NCBI GenBank assembly: GCA_002898215.1
Contig: BEIF01000001.1
Location: 353,501-417,500, forward strand
Length of the DNA stretch: 64,000 nt
From: a bacterium HR29
GTDB lineage: Bacteria > Chloroflexota > Dehalococcoidia > Tepidiformales > Tepidiformaceae
Reading direction: 5' to 3'
Both the position numbers and the translations under genes were made by a program. The notes below the pieces were generated by a model. That model was given only the letters and a program-made list of their open reading frames with translations, searched no databases and was not told the DNA's origin. Below are positions 46,321 through 49,923 of the stretch, piece after piece. Numbering within the stretch: the stretch's first letter is position 1; every line of letters begins with the position of its first letter.

Positions 46321-46552
46321 TTGCAACCCGCGCCCTTGCCGATTATAGTGGTGGCGAGCCCCTTGGAATCGCACTGCACCGTGTCATCGCTGGTCACGCC
46401 GTCCCGCCGCGGGGGTGGGCGGTAGGCACGTTTGGGTTCGGTGCAAGGGTCGATCGCCGGGGAGCGCGACTCCAGGTTCGTAGTGATGAGTGCAACGGGC
46501 GCGATGCCCATCGTCTCGGCGCGACAAATCTCCTCGCGGGCTCGGAGTTGAC
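46321..46552 (+). promoter_or_regulatory. rpoD promoter and about 200-nt leader
   Basis: TTGCAA (46321-46326) and TATAGT (46344-46349) are exactly 17 nt apart, the best -35/-10 pair in the window. Transcription would start near 46356, leaving about 197 nt before the ATG at 46553, with CGGAG just upstream of it. The 324-bp gap 46229-46552 holds only this promoter, the divergent hyuA promoter and the leader. I could not match the leader to a riboswitch class. Confidence 0.7.
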
Positions 46553-48109
46553 ATGGCAGGTGGAGTGAACGACGACGTGGTAATGGCAATGGCCCCTGGG
46601 ATGGGCGACGCCATCGAGCGGCTTGGTGTCGCCCGCGAGGCGGACGAGCTCGAGGAGCTCGGCCTCGATGTGGAAACGGGCGAACTGGTGGTCGACGAAG
46701 AGCCGCTCGCAGCCGAAGAGGAAGTCGAGGAAACCCTGTTCGAAGAGGAGGAGGAAGGCGAGGCGCTCGAGGACTCCGTTCGCGCCTACCTGCGCGAAAT
46801 CGGGCGCGTCGACCTCCTCACCAAGGCCGATGAGCAGCGGCTCGGCGCGGAAATGGAGGCGCGCGATTACCTGAAGCGCCTCGAAGAGGAGTACCGCGAG
46901 GCGCACGGCACGGAGCCGTCGCCGGCGCGCGCGGCCGTGCTCCTGCTGGAGCGGCTCACGGCCTCCTGGCAGGCGCTCGCTGCTGCCGCGGCCGTCGCCC
47001 GTGGCGACGCGGAGGAACTGGGGAAGCTCCGCCGCCGGCGGAAGCCAGCCTTCGGGCGACCGCTGACGGAGGTGGCAGCCGATCCTGCCGTCCGGGCGAT
47101 CATCGATGGCGAGTTCAAGCCCGACTTCGTGAAGACGCTCGAATCCGCGCTCGGCCTGACCACCGAGGCCGCGCAGCGCGCCATCGTCGATGTCTCCGTC
47201 ACGACGACGATCCTCGACCCTGCGCTGCTGAAGGCGATGGCCGAGGCGGCGGGCGGGGAGGAGAAGCTGGTGCCGCCCGCGCCTGAACTCGTCGAGGCGC
47301 TCCTGCCGCTCGAAGGTCAGCTCCGTCGCCGTTTCGAGGAGGTGAAGCGGAAGGGCGACCGCGCCCAGAAGCAGCTCGCCGAGGCGAACCTCCGCTTGGT
47401 GGTCTCGGTCGCGAAGAAGTACATCGGCCGGGGCATGTCCCTCCTCGACCTCATCCAGGAAGGGAACATCGGCCTGCTCCGGGGCGTCGAAAAGTTCGAC
47501 TATCGGAAGGGCTTCAAGTTCTCCACGTACGCCACCTGGTGGATCCGCCAGGCCATCACCCGCGCCCTGGCCGACCAGTCGCGGACCATTCGCATCCCGG
47601 TCCACATGACCGAGGTGATGAACAAGCTCGCCCGCGTCACCCGCCGGCTCATGCAGCAGTACGGCCGCGAGCCGACGGCCGAGGAGCTGGCGGCTGCGAT
47701 GCAGAAGGAGGTTCGCCCCAACGAGGCGGCGCAGTACACTCCGGAGCGGATCCGGGAGATCCAGGCGCTGGCCCGCGACCCGGCCTCGTTGGAGACGCCT
47801 ATCGGCGACGACGAGGAGAGCGAGCTGGGCGACTTCATCGAAGACGAGAACGCCATCGCGCCCGAAGAAGTGGCGACGATGCAGCTCTTGCGTGAGCAGG
47901 TGGAGGATATTCTGGCGACGCTCACCGCTCGCGAGCGCCAGGTCCTGAAGCTCCGCTTCGGCCTCGAGGATGGCCGAGCCCGCACTCTCGAAGAGGTCGG
48001 GCGGGAGTTCGGCGTCACGCGGGAGCGAATCCGCCAGATCGAAGGCCAGGCGCTCCGCAAGCTTCGGCAGCCGAGCCGGGCGCGGAAGCTCGCTGGCTAC
48101 CTCGAATGA
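46553..48109 (+). CDS. rpoD: primary RNA polymerase sigma factor (sigma-70 family)
   Basis: 518 residues. A short acidic N-terminus (about 1-70) replaces the full region 1.1. Region 1.2 ([20 protein letters not shown]) is followed by a non-conserved segment of about 170 residues, then region 2 ([40 protein letters not shown]), region 3 and region 4.2 ([20 protein letters not shown]). All primary-sigma features are present. ATG with CGGAG 6 nt upstream; stop overlaps the zinc-ribbon gene (ATGA). Confidence 0.96.
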
Positions 48110-48612
48110 CGAACACCGTTGCGAGGAGCATGAGGGTGACGACGGAAGTCCCACTGCTCACCTGCAGCCGCTGCGGGAGCGAATTCGAACCCTTGGACGA
48201 CCTCCCCACCGAGGAACGTGGCGAGGTGCTCTGCAGCGAGTGCCGCGGGGGTGAGGCTCCCTCCCGTCGGCGGCAGAAGCGGCGGCGCATTACCGTCGAG
48301 TGCGCCGCGTGCGGTGAAAAGGCCCGCATCTCCTTCGAACCGCGTGAGGGACGTCCCGTCTACTGCAAGCGCTGCTTCAAGAAGCAGCAACAGGACGCCC
48401 AGGCCGGCGAAGCGGAGGAGGAAGAGGACATCCGCATCCCGTCCTCGGTCGACCTGTACATGCGCAACAACCGCTGGACGCGCTGGGTGCGAGGCCACGC
48501 ACGGCGGAATGGGGCCCAGAACGGGTTCCGCCCTGGCATGGCCTGGGAAGGCCCCATCGAGCGCCCGCCCCTGCCCCGCCGAGGACTCGGGAGTGCCGGA
48601 ACGTACGACTGA
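48106..48612 (+). CDS. double zinc-ribbon protein translationally coupled to rpoD
   Basis: 168 residues. Two zinc-ribbon-like units: [14 protein letters not shown] with VLCSECRGG (about 20-46), and [16 protein letters not shown] with [10 protein letters not shown] (about 65-92), the latter like the CxxC-type ribbon often seen in small Chloroflexota and Patescibacteria proteins. The acidic and basic C-terminus (about 100-168) shows no domain I recognise. The ATGA overlap with rpoD implies matched synthesis; a role near RNA polymerase or nucleic acid is plausible, but this is inference. Confidence 0.8.
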
Positions 48613-48662
48613 CGGCGAGCCCTCCGCCTGCTATCCGTTCGACACCTTTTCATTACCTGCGA

Positions 48663-48714
48663 TACGATGGAGCCTGCTCGGTGCGGAAGCGCACCGGGCA
48701 GTGCTTCCCTCCTG
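48663..48714 (+). promoter_or_regulatory. -10 box and first hairpin of the deacetylase leader
   Basis: TACGAT at 48663-48668 could start transcription near 48675. Immediately there, 48674-48685 pairs with 48690-48701 (12 pairs including one G-U; loop GAAG). A competing pairing GGAAGC (48685-48690) with GCTTCC (48703-48708) would break this stem. The arrangement resembles an attenuator, but may also be part of a tandem terminator for the rpoD operon. Confidence 0.45.
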
Positions 48715-48745
48715 GCAGGACCGGTCCCCCGGTCCTGCTCATTTT
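48715..48745 (+). terminator. intrinsic terminator 24 bp before the deacetylase gene
   Basis: GCAGGACCGG and CCGGTCCTGC form a perfect 10-bp stem around the loop TCCC, followed by TCATTTT. It ends only 23 bp upstream of the GTG of the next gene and about 100 bp after the zinc-ribbon stop, so it either ends the rpoD operon or acts as an attenuator for the deacetylase gene. Confidence 0.7.
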
Positions 48746-48768
48746 GCGGTTCCACCGGAGGGCACGCC

Positions 48769-49923
48769 GTGAGCGGCACCGCCGCCTACGTGTACTCGCC
48801 TGAACTTCGCCAGTACGACCACGGGCCCCTCCATCCCCTCAAGCCCGAGCGCTTCACCCTCGCACGAGAGCTCTCCGAGGTGTGCGGACTTCTCAGCGCC
48901 CCCGACGTCCTCGACCTGCCGGCTCGGCCGGCCCGCGATGAGGAGATCGCAACCTGCCATTCGACGCGGTACATCGAAGCGGTTCGTGCTGCCGGCGAAG
49001 GCGCGCCTGGCCGCTGGGAGGCGTTCGGGTTCGGCCCGGGCGACAACCCCATCTTCGCGCGCATGCACGATGCAGCCGCTTGGGTGGTCGGCGCCACGCT
49101 CGAGGCGGCCCGGGCGATCGCCGAAGGGCGAGCGCTGCACGCCTTCAGTCCCGCCGGTGGGCTCCACCACGCGATGCCCGAACAGGCCTGGGGCTTCTGC
49201 ATCTACAACGACCCTGCCATCGCCATCCGCTGGCTCCTCCGACAGGGGTTCCAGCGCGTCGCCTACATCGACCTCGATGTCCACCACGGCGACGGCGTGC
49301 AGGCCATCTTCTACCGCGAGCCGCGGGTGCTCACGATCTCCATCCACGAAAGTGGGCAGTTCCTCTTTCCGGGAACCGGGTTCGTGGACGAGATCGGAGA
49401 GGGGCCTGCCGAAGGCACGAAAGTGAACGTACCACTGCCGCCCGGAACGGCGGACCCGGAGTGGCTGCTCTCCATCGACGAAATCGTCCTTCCCCTCGTG
49501 CGCGCTTGGCGGCCCGACATCCTCGTCACCCAGCTCGGCTGCGACACCCACGCGACGGACCCACTCGCCCACTTCGAGCTTTCGACCTTCGCCTATCGGG
49601 AGGCGTACGCGCGCATGCATGCCCTCGCCCACGAGGTGGCGGGCGGGCGCTGGCTCGCTACCGGGGGAGGCGGCTACCAATGGGCAGCGGTGGCTCCTCG
49701 CGCGTGGACGCTCGCCTTCGCGGAAATGGTGGGTCGCGAGCTTCCCGAGACGGTTCCCGAGGCGTGGGCGGCATCGGTGGCGGAGCGGTACGGTGTCGAC
49801 GTTCCGCGGCCGTTCGTGGAAGAGCAGGCTCGGCCGGGCGCGTATGCGCACCACGTCCGCCGCGTGCTCCAAGCGGTCAAAGCGGCCGTCTTCCGTTATC
49901 ACGGGCTCGACGGAGAGAGCTAA
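48769..49923 (+). CDS. AcuC-type histone-deacetylase-family protein
   Basis: 384 residues of the arginase/deacetylase fold. The catalytic histidines are in SPAGGLHHAMPEQAWGFCIY, metal ligands in AYIDLDVHHGDGVQAIFY and TQLGCDTHATDPLAHFEL, and the glycine-rich LATGGGGYQWAA closes the site. AcuC deacetylates acetyl-CoA synthetase in bacilli; the target here is unknown. GTG start with CGGAGG 7 nt upstream. The 3' end overlaps the convergent gene by 4 bp. Confidence 0.92.
   Translation: MSGTAAYVYSPELRQYDHGPLHPLKPERFTLARELSEVCGLLSAPDVLDLPARPARDEEIATCHSTRYIEAVRAAGEGAPGRWEAFGFGPGDNPIFARMHDAAAWVVGATLEAARAIAEGRALHAFSPAGGLHHAMPEQAWGFCIYNDPAIAIRWLLRQGFQRVAYIDLDVHHGDGVQAIFYREPRVLTISIHESGQFLFPGTGFVDEIGEGPAEGTKVNVPLPPGTADPEWLLSIDEIVLPLVRAWRPDILVTQLGCDTHATDPLAHFELSTFAYREAYARMHALAHEVAGGRWLATGGGGYQWAAVAPRAWTLAFAEMVGRELPETVPEAWAASVAERYGVDVPRPFVEEQARPGAYAHHVRRVLQAVKAAVFRYHGLDGES

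Follow-up and report, generated by a model that had tools for sequence, protein, structure and literature searches.

The window, a 64,000-nucleotide stretch of the bacterium HR29 genome to which all positions below refer, contains a gap of 156 nt between the stop codon of a small zinc-finger gene at 48612 and the GTG start codon of a deacetylase gene at 48769. All features of this locus lie on the forward (+) strand. Upstream, an RpoD-like sigma-70 factor is encoded at 46490–48109, with Sigma70 regions 1.2, 2, 3 and 4 and with RpoD_Cterm above the cut-off; its start is uncertain (the gene script picked 46553). A second RpoD-like sigma factor, encoded at G000:C1:1054821-1056401 of the same 2.3-Mb genome, is 58% identical to the product of 46490–48109. 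The last gene of the upstream operon codes for a small zf_Tbcl_2 zinc-finger protein (48106–48612; PF23477, 2.2e-15) and starts at either 48106 or 48136.

The gene downstream (48769–49923) codes for a classical zinc deacetylase that carries a Hist_deacetyl domain (PF00850, 4.5e-85) and shows sequence kinship to solved HDACs and HDLP; its nearest relative, L062, aligned from residue 1 of the GTG-initiated protein. The original prediction had named it AcuC-type. The Hist_deacetyl domain agrees with this name, but a comparison with NCBIfam assigned zero families at E 0.001, and the label is a loose one. An N-terminal extension from an ATG at 48667 has an open frame, but this codon overlaps the –10 element and is without a Shine-Dalgarno, and we rejected it. 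A leader ORF of 23 codons, running from a GTG at 48701 to a TGA at 48772 and overlapping the deacetylase GTG, is by eye also without a Shine-Dalgarno and is probably due to chance.

The gap is built, in this order, from a promoter-like site, a first hairpin (hp1), the motif CCCTCC, a second hairpin (hp2), a broken T tail (TCATTTT), the Shine-Dalgarno GGAGGG and then the deacetylase. hp1 (CTGCTCGGTGCG/GAAG/CGCACCGGGCAG, 48674–48701) has 12 pairs, one of them G-U, with a folding energy of -23.6 kcal/mol; it starts 61 nt past the upstream stop and lies 67 nt from the deacetylase. After a gap of 13 nt follows hp2 (GCAGGACCGG/TCCC/CCGGTCCTGC, 48715–48738), with 10 perfect pairs and -19.9 kcal/mol, which starts 102 nt past the upstream stop and lies 30 nt from the deacetylase. 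The tail occupies 48739–48745 and ends 23 nt before the GTG. Thus, the 12-pair hairpin, the perfect 10-bp stem and its TCATTTT, all claimed in the original prediction, were borne out, and so was the placement of hp1 at the predicted transcription start, since it begins at 48674 and the expected +1 is at ~48675. CCCTCC (48707–48712) is the perfect complement of the deacetylase Shine-Dalgarno (48757–48762), and their predicted pair probabilities are mostly at least 0.9.

To place these structures in their genomic context, we used a sample of 20 stretches of 20 kb plus the window, together 464 kb of 2.34 Mb, in which a simple codon-usage script called 444 genes; the calls are crude and the gene ends approximate. 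Positions 48640–48790 fold at -75.8 kcal/mol, compared with -57.0 ± 3.9 for 200 shuffles (z -4.8), and among the 22 promoter-to-gene leaders in the sample this one has the strongest structure (-0.60 kcal/mol per nt, the next being -0.49). Hairpins of -18 kcal/mol or better occur at 0.70 per kb in intergenic DNA vs 0.15 per kb in genes, and stems of at least 12 pairs number 18 in 48.6 kb intergenic vs 31 in 415 kb coding DNA. Only two pairs of such -18 kcal/mol hairpins lie at most 60 nt apart, and hp1/hp2 alone is fully intergenic, the first hairpin of the other pair being inside coding sequence; relaxing the limit to -15 kcal/mol gives 12 pairs, of which two have an intergenic first hairpin.

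The promoter-like site, TCGACA-18-TACGAT at 48639–48668, was judged against the same sample. Its intergenic DNA (49.4 kb) holds 27 sites of equal quality and its coding DNA (414.6 kb) five, an enrichment of which a likely higher A+T content of intergenic DNA may be a partial cause; at most 200 nt separate 23 of the 27 from a downstream gene on the same strand. Judged from sequence, the site is a credible promoter, from which transcription would start at ~48675. A scan of 48200–49100 returned no second promoter-like site and hence none between hp2 and the gene, so the hairpins probably lie inside the deacetylase transcript.

Several lines of evidence point to these hairpins as the 3' end of the upstream operon. 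In the 464-kb sample, hairpins of -18 kcal/mol or better occupy 10 of the 22 gaps between convergent genes, 19 of the 123 between tandem genes and 2 of the 66 between divergent genes (convergent vs divergent, p 7e-6; tandem vs divergent, p 0.008), the order expected of 3' terminators, which argues that strong hairpins mark gene 3' ends in this genome. By tail score, hp2 ranks second and hp1 third among 29 tandem-gap hairpins, and the score of hp2 is reached by only one of 184 coding hairpins. Closeness to the following gene is not special to hp2, since 9 of the 29 tandem-gap hairpins at -15 kcal/mol or better, hp2 included, lie at most 30 nt from the next start. The stems of hp1 and hp2 are stable and GC-rich beyond chance. 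The tail of hp2 is broken, with a score of 3.11 that becomes 2.46 when counted from 48740, that is, if the G48714-T48739 pair joins the stem. A terminator scan returned no terminator-like site at hp2 and its tail, presumably because this pair was counted into the stem, leaving four T. PMC8355165 describes hairpin clusters, mostly of two and with spacings below 15 nt, as a common form of intrinsic terminator favored by high GC; over 97% of the clusters and of the single hairpins there lie at most 80 nt from the stop codon, and hp2 is farther from its stop than nearly all of those terminators. Some GC-rich termini are without U tails (PMC8269248).

The gene neighborhood bears on the same question. 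A homologue of the zinc-finger gene was absent from all 99 other deacetylase loci fetched, many of which had only ~1.5 kb of flank, which suggests that the zinc-finger and deacetylase genes are separate units. Three Actinomycetospora loci have an RpoD-like gene 3.7–3.8 kb past the deacetylase on the other strand (L078:9945-10688, L081:9871-10632, L082:9821-10564), and the neighborhood of sigma factor and deacetylase may therefore be not wholly accidental.

The layout had also been read as that of an attenuator or small riboswitch, with a mutually exclusive alternative pairing. Pairing of the 52 nt 5' of hp2 with one or the other of its arms is indeed predicted, at -10.7 and -10.3 kcal/mol, but 76 and 81 of 149 unrelated hairpins from the genome pair with the same 52 nt equally well or better. 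Likewise, going from hp2 to the best alternative costs 17.4 kcal/mol, and 60 of 87 constructs in which another strong hairpin replaces hp1 (a set that included hp1 and hp2 themselves) cost no more. The alternative pairing is thus at chance level, and we rejected it as a switch. What stands of the proposed layout is the upstream promoter and the closeness of hp2 to the gene; the competing pairing, conservation in the gene family and a match to Rfam do not, as no Rfam family scored above its gathering threshold in 48500–48900 or in the whole window. A published distance filter for attenuator candidates, described in PMC2965389, asks that the terminator be nearer the downstream gene; hp2 passes it (30 vs 102 nt) and hp1 fails (67 vs 61 nt).

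We examined conservation at 66 of the 99 other deacetylase loci (40–56% identity), having left out loci that repeat the window and dropped 32 loci below 40% identity and one whose alignment starts after residue 25. Our terminator rule was satisfied at 1 of the 66 loci and at none of the 32 with at least 49% identity; a hairpin of -15 kcal/mol or better within 130 nt occurred at four, and two strong hairpins at none of the 66. Conservation of the hairpins with the deacetylase was not found at 40–56% identity. No further genome of the genus (g1) was present among 61 relatives or 38 genomes of the family. The rule itself is not blind, as it recovers a leader site at the greA gene of HR29 and at 13 of 29 further greA loci (with L290 counted for a weak 5-pair stem), on a background of 15 of 427 genes in the own-genome sample; the greA relatives are closer (50–72% identity, most from the same family), and the contrast with the deacetylase is not perfectly matched. 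The HR29 greA leader (L169:18387-18450, equal to G000:C1:718387-718450) has a promoter-like site and then, exactly at the expected +1, a hairpin of nine pairs (-16.1 kcal/mol) followed by CATTTTTTT, 39 nt before the ATG. It lies in a divergent gap and can hardly serve the upstream gene.

Searches for the leader elsewhere returned only the locus itself in its own genome, which speaks against a repeated element, together with an 18-nt exact match within apparent coding sequence; there was no match to the leader in plasmids, and the pattern CCCTCCNGGCAGGACCGG is present in three viral contigs. The stem of hp2 recurs within the family. CCTCC followed by the GCAGGACCGG hairpin has exact matches in three of the 38 genomes of the family, HR29 included, vs 0 of 38 for the reversed control, and each of the three copies has a hairpin directly 5'. 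In one genome (G024) the copy is found where nusG and a transporter-permease gene converge; the corresponding gap in G007 and G027 has the stem as well, but neither CCTCC nor a comparable first hairpin. The 10-nt stem thus forms a hairpin at this place in three genomes, all from another genus of the family. The third copy (L213:1501-1586, G016:C4:127924-128009) has two hairpins and lies between NrdR-like and luciferase-like genes, on the opposite strand to both. The bare stem occurs in 3 of 294 genomes of the class, all from this family; a permuted stem and the reversed pattern are each present in one of the 294. A model built from the window sequence given twice (R1) picked up, in addition, an unrelated hairpin located 3' of a flagellin gene, and its E-values are therefore untrustworthy. 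At E ≤0.1, a model of three sequences (R2) hit 24 sites distributed over 17 of 38 genomes; among the 13 of 24 matches listed, the stem is confined to the three founders and the matches from G007 and G027. The modest interpretation of these copies is a terminator stem that recurs, with the G016 copy outside it.

Regulated readings of the leader have to be weighed against this background. In one of them, hp1, alone or through a bound factor, would determine whether hp2 folds and halts RNA polymerase ahead of the deacetylase. The promoter 5' of both hairpins, the distance of hp2, the top rank of the leader in structure and the leader terminator at greA in the same genome are consistent with such attenuation. 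The chance-level competing pairing, the scarcity of the terminator rule at the other deacetylase loci and the lack of an Rfam match speak against it. Protein-bound attenuators need no competing pairing; overall, we consider the attenuator unlikely. Alternatively, CCCUCC (48707–48712) and GGAGGG might pair across hp2 and keep the mRNA untranslated until opened. The predicted probability that the Shine-Dalgarno is unpaired is 0.002, equal occlusion is seen in 7 of 241 genes and an exact 6-nt upstream complement in 6 of 154, this gene being included in both counts; such complements are, however, expected by chance in about 4% of genes, and single-sequence folding overstates pairing in a genome of 69% GC, which leaves this lock improbable. 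A combination of the two, a lineage-specific cis-regulatory RNA in which hp2 would be a conditional terminator and the CCCUCC-GGAGGG pairing a lock, tying deacetylation to a signal sensed by hp1, we hold to be quite improbable. Both high structure in the leader and an occluded Shine-Dalgarno are expected of a regulated leader, and neither is extreme enough here to show one.

Other readings assign the first hairpin or the whole element a different role. As DNA, hp1 is a near-perfect inverted repeat of 28 bp from the expected +1, and it might be an operator for a repressor of the deacetylase promoter, with hp2 as the terminator; given a leader present in a single genomic copy and no regulator identified, this is decidedly unlikely. 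The locus might instead produce a small RNA of ~71 nt (48675–48745) with its own promoter, hp1, a single-stranded CUUCCCUCC seed and hp2 as terminator. The exact copies, each preceded by a hairpin and set against a reversed control at zero, are compatible with this, as is the strand of the G016 copy; the position of the G024 copy in the nusG gap argues against it, together with the two same-genus relatives that keep the stem without CCTCC or such a first hairpin and the frequency of the bare stem (3 of 294 genomes, vs 1 with a permuted stem). The stem without CCTCC in the G007 and G027 gaps much weakens a small-RNA family with a CCUCC seed, and we regard a small RNA as very unlikely.

We therefore somewhat favor an intrinsic terminator of two hairpins that closes the rpoD/zinc-finger operon at its 3' end and doubles, passively, as the leader of the deacetylase. 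The original prediction had offered a tandem terminator for the rpoD operon as its simpler option, and the gap pattern, the tails and the chance-level pairing make this the better supported of its two readings. The 3'-end pattern of strong hairpins, the tail ranks, the cluster-terminator form and the stem in the convergent nusG gap argue for it, as do the separate gene units and the alternative pairing at chance. Against it stand the broken tail, the miss by the terminator scan and the 102 nt between hp2 and the stop codon, as well as the most structured leader of 22, the occluded Shine-Dalgarno and the RpoD-like neighbors in Actinomycetospora. In this mechanism, hp1 and hp2 would halt most read-through from the sigma-factor operon and, as the deacetylase 5' leader, would probably cut its transcription by a fixed amount, with no signal-sensing switch. 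Should the promoter be real, the next gene would be hit by the terminator as well, an odd arrangement for a purely passive element. Even so, we infer that the leader is unregulated, and it is probably an ordinary, routine terminator.

If so, a compact GC-rich genome may use one hairpin pair both as an operon end and as the leader of the next gene, and attenuator geometry alone is weak evidence of regulation. A regulated leader would mean RNA-level control of a bacterial deacetylase; among the literature matches listed (titles and abstract openings of the open literature) there was no report of an acuC or deacetylase leader, attenuator or riboswitch, which does not prove that none exists.

Known systems resemble the locus in part. 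With the attenuation leaders of PMC2965389 it shares a promoter, a leader hairpin, a terminator close to the gene and passage of the distance filter, and it differs in having no above-chance antiterminator and no conservation in the gene family at the distances available. The HR29 greA leader is similar to attenuators of the greA/GraL type (PMC2965389, PMC6829880). The deacetylase leader has in common with the GraL system of PMC6829880 a +1 hairpin and, ahead of the gene, a terminator-like site, an arrangement with an example in its own genome; the two differ in recurrence, with the greA site at 13 of 29 other loci and that of the deacetylase at 1 of 66. Compared with the cluster terminators of PMC8355165, hp2 lies farther from the stop (102 nt) and 30 nt before a gene, with a likely promoter in between, whereas two GC-rich hairpins 13 nt apart, an hp1 less than 80 nt from the stop codon and a weak T tail are features that the locus shares with them.
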